Of a stretch of DNA of 64,000 bases, positions 7,869-50,980 are shown in pieces. Within the stretch, counting starts at the first letter, position 1, and the number at the start of each line of letters is the position of its first letter. A program made the translations under genes and the position numbers. The notes under the pieces were generated by a model. That model saw nothing but the letters and a program-made list of their open reading frames with translations. It made no database searches and was not told the origin of the DNA. Origin of the DNA: Asticcacaulis sp. ZE23SCel15 (GTDB taxonomy: Bacteria; Pseudomonadota; Alphaproteobacteria; Caulobacterales; Caulobacteraceae); assembly GCF_030505395.1 (NCBI RefSeq), contig NZ_CP130044.1, positions 1,845,001 through 1,909,000 on the forward strand. The letters run 5' to 3'.

Positions 7869-10532
7869 ATGAGACCTTCTTTTATCAATATCGGTGAACG
7901 CACCAACGTCACCGGCTCCGCCAAGTTCAAGAAACTCGTCATCGAGGGCAATTATTCCGCCGCGCTCGATGTGGCGCGTCAGCAGGTCGAGGCCGGGGCC
8001 GCGATTATCGACGTCAATATGGACGAAGGGCTGCTGGATTCAGTGGTCGCCATGCGCACCTACTTAAACTTGCTGGCCGCCGAGCCTGATATCGCGCGCG
8101 TGCCGGTGATGATCAACTCATCCAAATGGGAGGTGATCGAAACCGGCCTGAAATGTGTGCAGGGCAAGGCGATCGTCAACTCGATCTCCATGAAGGAAGG
8201 CGAGGATAAGTTCCGCGCCGAAGCCATAAAATGCCTGCGCTACGGGGCTGCGGTCGTGGTCATGGCCTTTGACGAAGTGGGCCAGGCCGATACGGCTCAG
8301 CGCAAGATCGAAATCTGCACCCGCGCCTACAATATTCTGGTGAACGAGGTCGGCTTTCCGGCCGAAGACATCATTTTCGACCCCAATATCTTTGCCGTGG
8401 CGACCGGCATCGAAGAACACGATAACTACGCCGTCGATTTCATTGAGGCCGTCAAGGTCATCAAAGCGACCCTGCCCTATGCGCGCATATCGGGGGGGGT
8501 GTCGAACGTGTCGTTTTCCTTCCGCGGTAATGAGCCGGTCAGGCGCGCGATCCACTCGGTGTTTCTCTATCACGCCATCAATGCCGGCATGGATATGGGT
8601 ATTGTCAATGCCGGTGACTTGCCGGTCTATGACGACATCGACCCGGAACTGCGCGAGGCCGTTGAGGACGTGATCCTGAACCGCTCTCAGCGCCATAATG
8701 TGTCGAACACTGAATATCTGGTTGATCTGGCGCCCAAATACAAAGGCGAAAAAGGTCAGGTCGAGGCCAAGACCTTAGCCTGGCGCGAAGGCACGGTCGA
8801 TGAACGCCTGAAACACGCTTTGGTCAACGGCATCACCGAATTTATCGACGCCGACACCGAAGAAGCCCGCCTGCAAGCCGCGCGGCCTTTGCATGTCATC
8901 GAAGGCCCGCTGATGGCCGGGATGAACGTGGTCGGTGATCTGTTCGGGGCCGGTAAGATGTTCCTGCCGCAGGTCGTCAAATCGGCCCGCGTCATGAAGC
9001 AATCCGTGGCCTATCTGATGCCGTTTATGGAAGAAGAAAAACAGCAGCATGTGGCCGACGGCGGCACCTATCAGGCGGCGGGTAAGATCCTGATGGCGAC
9101 GGTCAAGGGCGATGTCCACGATATCGGCAAAAACATCGTTGGCGTGGTGCTGCAATGTAATAATTACGAGGTTATTGACCTTGGGGTGATGGTGCCCGCT
9201 GACCGGATTTTGGCTGAGGCCAAAGAGCATAAGGTTGATATGATCGGCCTGAGCGGTCTGATCACGCCGAGCCTCGATGAGATGGTGTTTGTGGCGCGTG
9301 AAATGCAGCGCACCGGCTTTGATATTCCGCTGCTGATCGGCGGAGCGACAACCTCCAAAACCCACACAGCGGTCAAGATCGAACCGGGCTATAGCAACGA
9401 TCAGGTCGTCTATGTGCTGGATGCCTCTCGCGCCGTCGGCGTGGTGTCGCAACTGCTGAGCGAAACTGATAAGCCGAAATTTGTGGCTGATACCAAGGCC
9501 GATTACGTCAAGGTGCGCGACGCCTATGGCAAGGGCGATAACAAACCGCGCTCCGATCTGGTTGAGGCCCGCGCGCGCAAATTCAACATCGATTTTGCGG
9601 CGGAATCGCCGGTCGCCCCGTCGTTTCTGGGCGTGCGCACGTTTAGTCCCTATGACCTGAACGATCTGGCCGAACACATCGACTGGACGCCGTTCTTTGC
9701 GACCTGGGAACTGGCCGGACGGTTTCCTGATATTTTGGATGATGACATCGTCGGTGAGGCCGCGCGTGGGCTCTATAAAGATGCGCAGGAAATGCTGGCG
9801 CGGATTCTGACCGAAAAGTGGTTTGAAGCGCGCGGCGTGGTCGGATTCTGGCCGGCTAATGCGACCGAGGATGACGATATCGAAGTCTATGGGGACGAGA
9901 CGCGCTCAAAGGTCATCGCCAAGTTCCACACCCTGCGCCAGCAGATGAAAAAGCCGCGCGCCGACCAAAGCAATCTGGCGCTGTCTGACTTCATCGCACC
10001 CAAGGGCACGCCTGACTGGATCGGCGGCTTTGCGGTCACTGCGGGGCATGGCGAGCTGGAAATCGCCAAAAAATTCAAAGACGCTGGCGATGACTATAAT
10101 GCCATTCTGGCCACCGCTCTGGCTGACCGTCTGGCCGAAGCCTTTGCCGAAAGCCTGCACAAAAAGGTGCGGCGCGAACTGTGGGCCTATGCGGCCGACG
10201 AAGACCTCGATATCGCGGGCCTGATTGCCGAGCAGTATAAAGGTATCCGTCCGGCGCCCGGCTATCCGGCCCAGCCTGACCATACCGAAAAATGGACGCT
10301 GTTTGACCTCTTGGATGCGCGGTCACGGACGGGTATGGAACTGACCGAAAGCCTGGCCATGACCCCGCCGGCCTCGGTGTCGGGCATGTATTTCGCCCAT
10401 CCGAAAGCCCACTATTTCGGCGTCGGCAAGATCGAAAAGGATCAGGTTGAAGACTATGCCCGCCGCAAAGGCTGGCCCATTGATCAGGCCGAGCGGTGGT
10501 TGTCGCCGATCCTGAATTATGTGCCCTCTTAG
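7869..10532 (+). CDS. metH: Methionine synthase, folate/cobalamin/activation half (split MetH)
   Basis: 887 residues. The order is a pterin-binding barrel ([16 protein letters not shown] start, ~1-290), a four-helix cap (~300-400), the B12-binding Rossmann domain with GDVHDIGKN (the DxHxxG cobalamin histidine, near residue 413) and [13 protein letters not shown], then the SAM-binding reactivation domain ending with [12 protein letters not shown] and [11 protein letters not shown]. Together with the 6083-7147 product it transfers the methyl of 5-methyl-THF to homocysteine. The stop codon TAG lies within the first bases (TTAGAAC) of the palindromic repeat that follows. Confidence 0.96.
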
Positions 10533-10597
10533 AACTCCCCCTGTTGCAGGGGGAGCTTCTCTTTGATCATACTGATCAAAGAGAAGAGGGGGTAAAA
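10530..10597. repeat. Left inverted repeat of the DUF559 unit
   Basis: After AGAA comes an outer hairpin CTCCCCCTG/CAGGGGGAG (10535-10555, 3-nt loop). An inner hairpin with perfect 14-bp arms follows (10556-10569 and 10573-10586, loop TAC), then AGGGGGTAAAA directly before the DUF559 ATG. AGGGGG at 10587-10592 is a well-spaced Shine-Dalgarno. The copy at 10965-11035 is the same unit in opposite orientation. Confidence 0.9.
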
Positions 10598-10963
10598 ATG
10601 ACCGACGAAATGCGCCGTGCTGCTAAGTCATTACGCGCTGACATGTCCCTTCCGGAAATGCTGGTTTGGACGCGCCTTAAACAGCGTCAACCCGGAAAAC
10701 CTGTCTTCCGCAGGCAATATCCTATCGGCCCTTATGTTGCGGATTTCTACTGTTCCAAGGCGCGGCTGGTCATCGAAATTGACGGTATGGCGCATGATAT
10801 CGGCGACCGTCCAGAGCGCGATATTATGCGCGACAAATGGCTTAAGTATAAAGGTCTTGAGGTTTACAGGATAGCGGCAAGGGATGTATTGGCTGATCCC
10901 GAAGAGGCGGTTGAAGGGATTATTATTGTAACCTTGAACCGTCTGAAATTGTTCATGCCATAA
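10598..10963 (+). CDS. DUF559 endonuclease-like protein framed by inverted repeats
   Basis: 121 residues of DUF559, a family that I place in the Vsr-like PD-(D/E)XK nuclease fold. Visible motifs are RRAAKSLRADMSLPEMLVW, FRRQYPIGPYVADFYC (Asp), RLVIEIDGMAHD (Glu, Asp, His) and RDKWLKYKGLEVYR. It carries no transmembrane or DNA-binding domain of known type. The ATG has AGGGGG 5 bp upstream, supplied by the left repeat, and the stop is followed after one base by the right repeat. The gene is thus exactly enclosed by terminal inverted repeats that recur without the gene at other junctions. A role in moving or copying these repeats is my inference; a DNA-repair or restriction role is the alternative. 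Confidence 0.85.
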   Translation: MTDEMRRAAKSLRADMSLPEMLVWTRLKQRQPGKPVFRRQYPIGPYVADFYCSKARLVIEIDGMAHDIGDRPERDIMRDKWLKYKGLEVYRIAARDVLADPEEAVEGIIIVTLNRLKLFMP

Positions 10964-10964
10964 G

Positions 10965-11035
10965 TTTACCCCCTCTTTTATTTGATGAGAAATCATCAAA
11001 TAAAAGCTCCCCTGCAACAGGGGGAGTTCTTAAGA
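10965..11035. repeat. Right inverted repeat of the DUF559 unit
   Basis: In opposite orientation to the left copy: TTTACCCCCT, an inner hairpin with perfect 14-bp arms (10975-10988 and 10993-11006, loop GAAA), an outer hairpin CTCCCC.TG/CAGGGGGAG (11007-11026), then TTCTTAAGA. The inner arms differ from the left copy at several positions, yet both remain fully self-complementary. The distal end supplies AAGAAGA in front of the DUF4272 gene. Confidence 0.9.
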
Positions 11036-11044
11036 AGATACTCA

Positions 11045-11683
11045 ATGTCCGAATCCGAAACCCGCAAACAAAAATCCATAGCCTTTCTGACCGCCAAAGG
11101 GGTGCCGGTGCTGGACACCCTGCCGGAGATCGAAGAGGCCGCTGACGTTAAAATCCGCTCAGGCGCAGACATTGTCCGCCGCGCAATGTGCCTGACCACC
11201 GTGGCCAATGCGGCTATCAAGAATGATATCTCGGTGGCGCGGGCCTATGTCAAAAAACATGATCTGGCCGAACACCTGTCGCCCGAAGAACAGGCGTTCT
11301 TAGAGGCCGACGAAATCTCTGAAAAAGCCGCCATTCAGTTTTCGTGGCGCATCGAAGCGGCCATTCCGTTGATGTGGGCGATCGGTATGTATCCTGAACT
11401 ATGGTTCCCCGATGATGAGGTCGATGTGTCATATGTCATTGACTACTGGATCGGGTTCAATCATCCAGATATCACCCGCATCAGCCACCGCAATGTCCAC
11501 GAAATCTTAGATGAAGCCGACCTGATCTACCGCCTGCACTGGGCCGTGTGTCAGGCCAAAATCGATGGCACGAAACCGCCCGCCAACCTGCATCCCGGTG
11601 TGGTGCGGGAGCGGCATCAGGCGCTGAACTGGCTGATCAATTACGAAGATGACGACTGGGACGATGTAGGCACCGACACCTGA
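11045..11683 (+). CDS. DUF4272 domain-containing protein
   Basis: 212 residues. The DUF4272 pattern is seen in RRAMCLTTVANAA near residue 40, then FSWRIEAAIPLMWAIGMY (the W.iEa...L.WALG core) and the acidic C-terminal tail (NYEDDDWDDVGTDT). It is a soluble cytoplasmic protein of unknown function. The ATG at 11045 has AAGAAGA upstream; earlier methionines would lie in the repeat. It converges on the minus-strand glycosyltransferase gene, with the two stop codons directly adjacent. Confidence 0.8.
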   Translation: MSESETRKQKSIAFLTAKGVPVLDTLPEIEEAADVKIRSGADIVRRAMCLTTVANAAIKNDISVARAYVKKHDLAEHLSPEEQAFLEADEISEKAAIQFSWRIEAAIPLMWAIGMYPELWFPDDEVDVSYVIDYWIGFNHPDITRISHRNVHEILDEADLIYRLHWAVCQAKIDGTKPPANLHPGVVRERHQALNWLINYEDDDWDDVGTDT

Positions 11684-17077: not shown

Positions 17078-17210
17078 AGAACCTCCCCTGATTTCAGGGG
17101 AGGGGGACCATCAAGCGTAGCGAAGATGGTGGTGGGGTTAAACCCCGCGCCGATTAACCCCACCTCCGGCCCTACGGGCCTCCTCCTCCCCTGAAATCAG
17201 GGGAGGTTCT
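17078..17210. repeat. Inverted pair of two-hairpin repeats after rnpB
   Basis: Left unit: AGAACCTCCCCTGATTTCAGGGGAGG is cut here to its parts: CCTCCCCTGA/TCAGGGGAGG as outer hairpin, then ACCATC/GATGGT (17107-17130) as inner hairpin, then GGTGGGGTTAA. The right unit is the reverse complement pattern with an unrelated inner stem (GGCCC/GGGCC, 17168-17180). The conserved outer ends point outward, as in the DUF559 unit, but only ~12 bp lie between the inner ends. Confidence 0.88.
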
Positions 17211-24498: not shown

Positions 24499-25611
24499 AT
24501 GTTTTACTGGCTTTACGAACAATATGCGGGGATGGCGAACCATATTCCGCTGCTGAACCTGCTGAAATATCTGACGGTGCGCATTGCGCTGGCGCTGGCG
24601 ACGTCATGGATCGTGGCGGTGGCCCTGGGGTCGCGCTTCATCCGCTGGATGCGCTCCAAGCAGGGTAAGGGCCAGCCGATCCGCGAAGACGGCCCCGCCG
24701 GACACCTGCTGACCAAAAAAGGCACGCCGACCATGGGCGGGCTGATGATTCTGGCCGGTATTTTAGTGGCAACCCTGCTGTGGGCAGACCTTAGCAACCC
24801 GGCGGTCTGGGTCGTGCTGGGGGTGACGTTGGCGTTCGGGGGCTTGGGCTTCATCGACGACTACGCCAAGGTCACCAAACAATCGTCGGCCGGTTTATCA
24901 TCGATCCAGAAGCTGATCGCGCAAACGGTTGTGGCGGTGATTGCCGTGTGGGTTTTGGTGGCGTTCGGGCCGCAATCACCAACCTCGCCGGAACTTCATA
25001 CGTCCCTGGCTGTGCCGGTGTTCAAGAATTTCCTGCTTAATCTCGGCTGGTTCTATGTGGTGTTTGGCGCCGTGGTCATTATCGGCGCGTCCAATGCGGT
25101 CAACCTGACCGATGGGCTGGACGGTCTCGCGATCGTGCCGGTGATTTTTGCGGCAGGAGCGTTTGCGCTGATTTCCTACCTCGTCGGCAACTATGTGTTT
25201 GCCGGTTATCTTAACGTCCATTTTGTGCCGCGCGTCGGCGATGTGGCGGTGATCTGCGCGGCCATTATCGGCGGGGGTATGGGCTTTTTGTGGTACAATG
25301 CGCCACCAGCCAAGATATTCATGGGCGATACAGGATCGCTCGCTTTAGGCGGCGGTTTGGGCGCGGTTGCCGTGACCACCAAGCATGAGATCGTGCTGGC
25401 GATTGTCGGCGGCCTGTTTGTGATGGAAGCTTTGTCGGTCATGATTCAGGTCGGCTATTTCAAGCTGACGGGTAAGCGCGTGTTCCTGATGGCGCCGATC
25501 CACCACCATTTTGAGAAGCTAGGCTGGGCGGAATCGACAGTGGTTATTCGTTTCTGGATCATTGCGGCATTGCTGGCCATGATCGGTCTGGCGACGCTGA
25601 AGTTACGGTAA
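24499..25611 (+). CDS. mraY: Phospho-MurNAc-pentapeptide transferase MraY
   Basis: 370 residues with ten membrane helices. It makes lipid I from UDP-MurNAc-pentapeptide and undecaprenyl phosphate. Catalytic and signature motifs are [15 protein letters not shown] (Mg-binding Asp pair), [22 protein letters not shown] and [13 protein letters not shown]. It precedes a repeat pair that separates it from murD. Confidence 0.97.
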
Positions 25612-25616
25612 GCAAG

Positions 25617-25759
25617 GGCCCCCACCACCACGACCATAAATGGTCGCGGTCCCCCTCCCCAGTAAACTGGGGAGGTATAACAAAATAATACCTCCCCAAC
25701 TCGGTTGGGGAGGGGGACCGCACGAGATCGCGAAGCGATTGAGATGTGGTGGTGGGGGC
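25617..25759. repeat. Inverted pair of two-hairpin repeats between mraY and murD
   Basis: Two units face each other with their CCTCCCC ends at the centre (spacer ~8-10 bp AT-rich) and their GGTGGTGGGGGC ends outward. Outer hairpins are CCCCAGT/ACTGGGG (left) and CCTCCCCAAC/GTTGGGGAGG (right). Inner stems are ACGACCAT/ATGGTCG (left) and a looser GAGATCGCG...TTGAGAT region (right). The orientation is opposite to that at 17.1 kb. Confidence 0.87.
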
Positions 25760-25767
25760 ATCTTTAT

Positions 25768-25782
25768 GGAGAGTTCGGTTTG
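25768..25782 (+). promoter_or_regulatory. murD: Shine-Dalgarno and TTG start deciding murD
   Basis: GGAGAG at 25768-25773 is spaced correctly for a TTG at 25780-25782, whose frame gives IPVKGFEGKRVAIFG, the family N-terminus. The upstream ATG at 25705 would translate part of the repeat. Confidence 0.75.
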
Positions 25783-33810: not shown

Positions 33811-33934
33811 TTTACCCCCTCTTGATGTCAATATTGCTATTGCCATCAAGCTCCCCCTGCAACAGGGGGAGTTCTTAAGATTAGAACCTCCCCTGTTGCA
33901 GGGGAGGGTGCCCGAAGGGCGGGTGGGGTAAAAA
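33811..33934. repeat. Inverted pair of two-hairpin repeats between murB and folP
   Basis: Left unit: TTTACCCCCT, inner stem CTTGATG/CATCAAG (33821-33850, one inner mismatch), outer hairpin CTCCCCCTG/CAGGGGGAG (33851-33871), TTCTTAAGA. Right unit: TTAGAA, outer hairpin CCTCCCCTG/CAGGGGAGG (33887-33907), inner GCCC/GGGC, GGTGGGGTAAAA. The left unit matches the right end of the DUF559 unit closely. The right end reads straight into the folP ATG and gives its Shine-Dalgarno. Confidence 0.9.
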
Positions 33935-50850: not shown

Positions 50851-50980
50851 TATCTCCTCCCCAAAAGTTGGGGAGGTGGCTGCGAGCAAAGCGAGCAGAC
50901 GGAGGGGTATTTTAATGGCCGGTTATACCCCTCCGTCAGCCCTTTCGGTCTGACACCTCCCCATGAAATGGGGAGGTGGG
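50851..50980. repeat. Inverted pair of two-hairpin repeats after the SDR gene
   Basis: Outer hairpins CCTCCCCAA/TTGGGGAGG (left) and ACCTCCCCAT/ATGGGGAGGT (right) point outward. Inner stems are CTGC/GCAG (around 50880-50898) and GTCAG/CTGAC (50935-50955). The inner ends GGAGGGGTATTTTA and TTATACCCCTCC face each other over ~8 bp that include an ATG. It separates two converging genes. Confidence 0.87.

Follow-up and report, generated by a model that had tools for sequence, protein, structure and literature searches.

A DUF559 gene enclosed by inverted copies of a dispersed double-hairpin repeat in Asticcacaulis sp. ZE23SCel15, a probable REP/REPIN-like unit

Background

In this study, we report a 500 bp unit from Asticcacaulis sp. 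ZE23SCel15, located between metH and a DUF4272 gene, in which a DUF559 (PF04480) gene is exactly enclosed by two inverted copies of a dispersed double-hairpin repeat. The unit occupies positions 10531..11030 of the window, the 64,000-nucleotide stretch that was analysed (positions 1,845,001 to 1,909,000 of contig NZ_CP130044.1, RefSeq assembly GCF_030505395.1). Such enclosure was found to be general among DUF559 genes of related genomes, the repeat subtype pairs with the protein subclade, repeat number correlates with the number of DUF559 genes, the unit is present, absent or inverted at orthologous sites, and mismatches in the repeat stems are biased towards one strand. The window unit is probably the gene-bearing member of a repeat family resembling the repetitive extragenic palindromic (REP) sequences and their REPIN doublets, run by a DUF559 nuclease of the homing-endonuclease/Vsr fold, which would cleave and mobilise the repeats.

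The earlier papers cited in this study are drawn on through excerpts. REP sequences are described there as dispersed extragenic palindromes, which as REPINs form inverted doublets; the stretch between the two members is limited in its length and in its ability to form hairpins, and carries compensatory changes. The nuclease gene, that of the REP-associated tyrosine transposase (RAYT), lies beside its own repeat group, and several such pairs can occur in one genome (PMC3116915). TnpA_REP processes the single-stranded form of its cognate REP, and the two co-evolve (PMC8266576). A further group, the CGTC-tagged REPs, most of them in alphaproteobacteria and mostly dimers, 'apparently lack a dedicated transposase' (PMC3733652).

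The window unit and its repeats

The DUF559 open reading frame (ORF; 10598-10963, + strand) has an ATG start and 121 codons followed by TAA. Apart from an overlapping antisense ORF (10631-11017), it is the only ORF of at least 90 amino acids inside the unit. The left (10531-10597) and right (10964/5-11030) repeat copies, each of about 67 bp and folding into a double hairpin, match one another in inverted orientation over 22 nt (10531-10552/11009-11030, 100%), 21 nt (10550-10570/10992-11012, 86%) and 25 nt (10572-10596/10965-10989, 88%). Sequence, repeat comparison and folding define the outer hairpin of the left copy (CTCCCCCTGTTGCAGGGGGAG, 10535..10555, + strand); it is followed on the same strand by an inner hairpin (10556..10586) with a perfect 14-bp stem, which is highly variable among the copies in the genome yet palindromic, and by a G-rich tail (AGGGGGTAAAA, 10587..10597). 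The last part of this tail, GAGGGGGTAAAA, abuts the ATG and is a plausible Shine-Dalgarno of the gene. The right copy lies on the - strand, where a G-rich tail (10965..10974) begins one base past the stop codon, followed by an inner hairpin (10975..11006), also with a perfect 14-bp stem but unlike the left one in sequence, and by an outer hairpin (11007..11026) one base shorter than its left counterpart. The G-rich tails of both copies are directed toward the gene. When the G-rich strands were folded as single-stranded DNA, energies of -23.6 kcal/mol (z -7.9) and -17.6 kcal/mol (z -6.1) were obtained for the left and right copies, respectively, and none of 200 shuffles folded as well.

The repeat also occurs without the gene. 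The outer-hairpin pattern, with up to two mismatches, matched twice in the 64 kb (the left copy and 33849-33871) and never in 100 shuffles. Across the 3.77 Mb genome that holds the window (G000; G001, G002 and so on denote other genomes of the genus, and L-numbers individual loci compared with their surrounding DNA), the strict pattern of the window subtype gave 23 hits, including the left copy and a gene-free copy at 33814..33871 on the - strand, and the wider superfamily pattern gave 113 hits against seven DUF559 genes. A sequence-only reading of the window had described a 121-codon gene with DUF559 motifs, exactly enclosed by inverted repeats, taking its Shine-Dalgarno from the left copy and sharing its repeats with gene-free places; the coordinates, the profile match given below and the repeat hits bear this description out. 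Rfam returned nothing near its gathering score for 10400-11200 (best rmf, 20.9 of 45) and no intron family. Additional superfamily copies were seen in the window at 33888-33928 and 50857-50975.

Enclosure of DUF559 genes in other genomes

All seven DUF559 matches of G000 adjoin palindromes of the CTCCCC/GGGGAG type when their flanks are read, six of them on both sides; L009 has a repeat upstream only, and at L013 the last part of the reading frame is supplied by the right repeat. For a comparison free of any motif, the best inverted alignment between the left and right 200-bp flanks was scored with a threshold of at least 16, and flanks 500 bp further out, flanks mixed between loci and other gene calls were used as controls. 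DUF559 was present in 23 of the 25 genomes of the genus, with 113 matches, of which 97 were fetched and 16 stand outside the locus comparisons. The threshold was reached by 47/62 short-type loci of the genus (0/60 further out), 9/13 ribD-linked loci (0/13), 69/77 loci of a named set (0/73), 24/29 loci of the family (0/28) and 16/30 class-wide loci (0/30); loci with short flanks had been set aside (1/63 in the genus, 3/80 named and 1/30 in the family), and 12 of the 80 named loci are from Asticcacaulis and overlap the genus set. None of 94 other gene calls in the window and four syntenic stretches reached 16, the window DUF559 gene not scoring there owing to the longer start chosen by the gene caller. 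Many of the class-wide loci carry, by reading, a CCCTCTCCC/GGGAGAGGG variant of the repeat. The alternative raised with the sequence-only reading, that DUF559 genes of relatives normally lack flanking repeats, is not borne out by these counts.

Six of nine plasmid loci examined, taken from 37 records, also reached 16 (Sphingobium, Novosphingobium, Qipengyuania, S. meliloti and two of S. parapaucimobilis), and those of E. coli, Azospirillum and Synechocystis scored below it. Among 224 loci scanned for strict repeat matches within about 220 bp, 47 had matches on both sides of the gene, and the G-rich end of the nearest copy faced the gene in 68/77 cases on the left and 51/64 on the right.

The ribD-linked (class B) genes had been considered repeat-free on motif counts of 1/13 and 0/13, a view abandoned when the motif-free comparison and reading revealed another palindrome. 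Genes of this second DUF559 group (L016-L025, L030, L031, L052) are either fused to a deaminase-domain gene or overlap one (checked with Pfam for L052); we take the partner to be ribD-like. Most flanks of the group hold a CCCTCTCCC/GGGAGAGGG/GGTGAGGGG palindrome, and several of its reading frames continue through the repeat.

DUF559 units of Sphingomonas were found separating sufB from sufC, and one transhydrogenase subunit gene from another. Units at five loci of Sphingomonadales precede what is apparently the same transhydrogenase subunit gene, annotated in L389 and recognised by DNA likeness in L117, L131, L148 and L178; this recurrence may reflect a preferred site or old inheritance. Downstream of the DUF559 gene ycjD of E. 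coli K-12 MG1655 (L396, 2690-2925), a decayed CCCTCTCCC repeat meets the stop of the gene and a full GGGGAGAGGGTTAGGGTGAGGGG palindrome follows about 170 bp further on; a different hairpin lies just upstream of the gene. Of 5426 E. coli genomes, 5375 carry the GGGGAGAGGGTTAGGGTGAGGGG palindrome, the median being 19 places per genome; the E. coli repeats beside ycjD are presumably those named boxC.

Repeat subtype and repeat number follow the protein

Pairing between protein and repeat was examined with 68 loci (8 of 76 were left out), and 2197 pairs remained after removal of same-site pairs in either orientation. A left-flank score of at least 20 was found in 15 of 21 different-genome pairs with a protein identity of at least 0.7, against 2 of 598 pairs below 0.4. 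When all pairs with an identity of at least 0.6 were taken, the proportion was 31/85 (0.365), and the maxima of 1000 shuffles and of 1000 within-genome shuffles were 0.129 and 0.212, respectively. Since the observed pairing exceeds even the within-genome shuffles, the repeat follows the protein and not merely the genome. Strict hits of the window subtype were most frequent in G000 (23), G005 (17), G008 (36), G014 (14) and G018 (16), with eight in G023 and two in G017; the 18 remaining genomes of the genus had none. Among the 96 fetched genus loci that were compared, proteins 78-100% identical to that of the window occur only in those same five genomes, the next best being 60% identical. Neither of the two window-type proteins of G018 is intact: an internal deletion has broken the one at the metH site, and a frameshift the other.

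Repeat number was compared with DUF559 number in 199 genomes of the family, using net hits, that is, pattern hits minus those of a reversed-pattern control; the DUF559 genes' own flanks are included in these counts and may add about two per gene. The Spearman correlation was 0.64 (maximum of 2000 within-genus shuffles, 0.46). Median net hits rose from 1 in genomes without a DUF559 match (n=41) to 7.5 with one (n=34), 37.5 with two or three (n=50), 59 with four to six (n=47) and 83 with seven or more (n=27), the median over all 158 genomes with a match being 46. The correlation was also present within the genera g3, g7, g21 and g22. Together with the generality of the flanking repeats, this supports the proposal of the sequence-only reading that the unit is comparable to REP/RAYT systems; in that reading a PD-(D/E)XK-like protein would mobilise or maintain the unit.

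Form of the repeats and the strand that folds

The dispersed elements consist of an outer CTCCCC...GGGGAG stem, a variable inner stem and a G-rich tail, and stand singly or as inverted doublets. Doublet gaps were listed in G001 for 96 of 100 listed hits (133 in all; four overlapping or degenerate ones were dropped), with neighbours up to 3 kb apart. The plus-minus gaps fell into classes of 18-26 bp (5), 44-49 bp (9) and 64-65 bp (4), and the sole gap between 65 bp and 3 kb, of 396 bp, is a DUF559 unit; among these hits the DUF559 unit is the ~400-bp class of inverted-doublet gap. Plus-minus gaps of G000 were mostly 8-24 bp, with two longer ones, one of them a DUF559 unit. Gap sequences of 20 doublets from G001 and G002 were mutually unrelated. 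An origin of the short doublets as miniature inverted-repeat transposable elements, by internal deletion of DUF559 units, was considered and dropped, as the gap sequences differ; a shared terminal extension (6/14 units, 8/27 others) was indecisive.

For the window subtype, 116 strict-pattern hits yielded 89 distinct repeats for the inner-hairpin count, several others having been left out. These had five loop variants in the outer hairpin but 88 differing inner hairpins, and 92.8% of their 1046 inner-hairpin pairs were Watson-Crick.

If both DNA strands were equal, G-T and A-C mismatches would be expected alike in the stems. We counted mismatches flanked by pairs in distinct inner hairpins, reading each on the CTCCCC-to-GGGGG strand; the CCCTCTCCC repeat type offered no usable stems. 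The ratio of G-T to A-C was 15:0, 39:1 and 15:0 in three repeat types (69:1 together). Left copies (14:0) and right copies (6:0, p=0.03) both showed the bias, in either case on the G-rich strand of the copy itself. As one transcript cannot explain a bias on both sides of the gene, these counts point to folded single-stranded DNA as the form that is read.

The DUF559 protein

The window protein matched the PF04480 profile over residues 5-109 with 89.6 bits (cut-off 20.6, E=1.5e-25), and its AlphaFold2 model had a predicted local distance difference test score (pLDDT) of 91.6. The best relatives among solved folds were 3hrl, an 'endonuclease-like protein' of Neisseria, and then the catalytic domain of the homing endonuclease I-Bth0305I (Foldseek E 5e-4; profile match E 5e-4); the Vsr structure 1vsr was a weak match (Foldseek E 0.29). 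The Vsr repair endonuclease nicks T-G mismatches. Across 64 sequences, D49, E60 and H66 were invariant and D62 was conserved in more than 90%. These four are candidate catalytic residues, and their conservation would fit a metal-dependent nuclease. Searches of NCBI, defence and phage families gave only a below-cut-off match to PRK09767 (DUF559) and weak partial ones. The possibility that the gene is phage or plasmid cargo was dropped because window-like DUF559 is rare on both, being found on 37 of 72,556 plasmid and 4 of 50,697 phage records.

Comparison of orthologous sites

At the metH site of G000 and G008 the unit immediately follows metH; in G005 and, with a broken unit, in G018 an extra gene stands between the two. 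The unit is absent from G001 and G013, where the DUF4272 gene closely follows metH; for the other 19 genomes, none was visible in the sequence displayed. A second site holds a unit of the window subtype in G008, G018 and G014, and in G014 the whole unit stands in the opposite orientation between the same two flanks (L033 compared with L064 and L363). Repeat doublets near the window gene likewise differ in presence and absence between close relatives. No clear target-site duplication, such as a DDE insertion sequence or its MITE would be expected to leave, was found when filled and empty polymorphic repeat sites were compared, some genomes being unanchored in two of the four comparisons.

Two further repeat sites of the window differ between relatives. 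At 25606-25770 and the orthologous L275 and L277, the outer hairpins are kept and the inner hairpins differ in G000, G005 and G014, as if inner stems had been replaced as blocks. A mixed doublet at 17083-17205 is shared by G000 and G014, and only one 22-bp outer palindrome stands there in G008, which suggests loss or gain between outer hairpins.

Comparison with known systems

As in REP/RAYT systems, the palindromes on either side of the gene also occur scattered through the rest of the genome, and the protein subclade pairs with the repeat subtype, although the genome-level comparison covers one clade. As in REPINs, inverted doublets occur with length-conserved gap classes, seen here in the 96 of 133 hits of G001. 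Unlike REP/RAYT, the protein has the DUF559 fold (PF04480) and not that of HUH/Y1 enzymes, the unit has two hairpins, of which the inner is hypervariable, and several gap classes, and the foot of the repeat has no conserved GTAG tag (by reading, GTAG stands beside one window-subtype copy only, L266). A Y1 transposase (PF01797, E <= 0.001; loci L379-L386 left out) was not found in G000 and 20 of the other 24 genomes. The unit resembles REP/RAYT systems in its manner of working but is not one of them.

The CGTC REPs, by their description in PMC3733652, have single 8-9 bp stems, a CGTC tag and a CCA-type tail, unlike the CTCCCC/GGGGAG double hairpins reported here. CIR repeats of Caulobacter and Brucella are likewise two-arm intergenic repeats of alphaproteobacteria, but these are GANTC-bearing and about 110 bp long in the excerpts of PMC2229807, and by reading neither window copy contains GANTC. 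The DUF559 proteins include VsrA of C. crescentus, which is behind a DNA-damage response in cells lacking a cytosine methylase, and these repeats are unmentioned in the passages on VsrA drawn from that paper (PMC12907096). Vsr is tied to a cytosine methylase, whereas the window gene is tied to repeats and has metH and a DUF4272 gene as neighbours. I-Bth0305I is alike in fold and profile match but is listed as a mobile-intron protein, whereas the window DUF559 is a free-standing intergenic ORF between repeats. Our full-text literature search, judged by titles and the openings of abstracts and without most subscription papers and any preprints, found no earlier report linking DUF559 to palindromic repeats.

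Evaluation of the possible explanations

Exact enclosure in the window, repeated at most of the relatives examined, makes the unit look like a second, unrelated version of the REP/RAYT systems, and a repeat family run by DUF559 is the explanation we favour. The DUF559 protein, encoded in the gap of one inverted doublet, would be the dedicated nuclease of that repeat subtype. Its substrate may be the G-rich strand, folded as single-stranded DNA (at replication forks or in the course of repair, for example), which it would nick or cut near the hairpin or tail. Such a cut could allow a repeat, or a unit in its entirety, to be copied or converted into other repeats and into new sites, the joins being made by host recombination.

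Several observations weigh against this explanation. Under the flank threshold fell 15/62 genus and 14/30 class-wide loci, some with one-sided or direct-orientation repeats; ycjD of E. coli has superfamily repeats on one side only; and mixed flanks of different loci reached 16 in 11/185, 16/35, 56/231 and 33/82 cases for the short-type genus, ribD-linked, named and family sets, respectively, so part of the likeness reflects a shared repeat superfamily. The five genomes with the window subtype are near relatives, which makes the subtype comparison close to a single evolutionary event. The sequence-only reading had also been weighed against repeats being as common in genomes without DUF559, and this is mostly not borne out: the median is 1 without a DUF559 match against 46 with one, but 10 of the 41 genomes without a DUF559 match hold at least 20 net repeats, and within the window's genus repeat number did not correlate with DUF559 number (rho 0.13, p 0.54, n=25). 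Counting every inner pair of the window subtype lowers the strand bias to 29:6, and consensus positions, as opposed to independent changes, account for much of the G-A and of the type II G-T count; as part of the type I and II G-T excess stands at such positions, one strand is still indicated, but not independently by each copy. Additional repeats, and an unrelated ORF, occupy the other long gap of G000 (745 bp). Neither a transposition event nor an intermediate was observed, and no target-site duplication could be defined.

An unlikely alternative is that DUF559 is a homing-type invader of repeats belonging to another system, cutting the doublet gap and copying itself in by repair with the repeats as homology arms. 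I-Bth0305I as second-best fold and profile match, the existence of short empty doublets of the same repeats, and the in-place inversion of the unit between genomes, as expected if symmetric arms serve as homology, all agree with it. A passive site, however, need not track its invader, and here the repeat subtype tracks the protein subclade, not the genome, and repeat number tracks DUF559; units also lie inside operons, where an older doublet is neither shown nor excluded. Still less probable is an ordinary Vsr-type repair gene such as VsrA, caught between repeats that are moved otherwise or are recombination hot spots. The DNA-damage phenotype of VsrA in C. crescentus (PMC12907096, in the excerpt cited) would suit it, as would the repeats in genomes without a DUF559 match and the unrelated ORF in the other long G000 gap. 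Chance capture of that kind sits poorly with the absence of comparable enclosure from the 94 other gene calls, with DUF559 occupying the only G001 plus-minus gap of 65 bp-3 kb among the 96 hits, and with Y1 transposases not being found in 21 of 25 genomes. The hairpins might instead act in RNA, terminating transcripts or stabilising the mRNA of the gene and the genes next to it, and be kept for that role; the left copy supplies the likely Shine-Dalgarno, and hairpins of this kind, folded here as DNA, should be strong in RNA too. This we regard as very improbable, because the bias appears on coding-strand and template-strand copies alike, which one transcript cannot explain, and because the superfamily hits of G000 far outnumber its DUF559 genes.

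Conclusions

A DUF559-run, REP/REPIN-like family remains the probable explanation of the window unit. A wider proposal, which we put forward tentatively and with some doubt, is that DUF559 forms a second great palindrome-nuclease class, independent of HUH/RAYT, which drives the CTCCC/GGGAG palindromes of alphaproteobacteria and reaches E. coli ycjD with CCCTCTCCC/GGGGAGAGGGTTAGGGTGAGGGG, acts on the folded G-rich single strand with its G-T and G-A mismatches, and rewrites inner hairpins. If so, a Vsr-fold nuclease would be suited to such a strand, and the rewriting would explain why the inner hairpins are hypervariable yet well paired. The finding offers a function hypothesis for a widespread family still called a 'domain of unknown function' and a candidate enzyme for abundant alphaproteobacterial repeats, and it bears on the recent work on VsrA as the DUF559 protein behind a DNA-damage response (excerpted from PMC12907096). 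With several protein-repeat pairs available in many genomes, the hypothesis is directly testable, and it would show that pairs of nuclease and palindrome arose at least twice, from unrelated enzymes.

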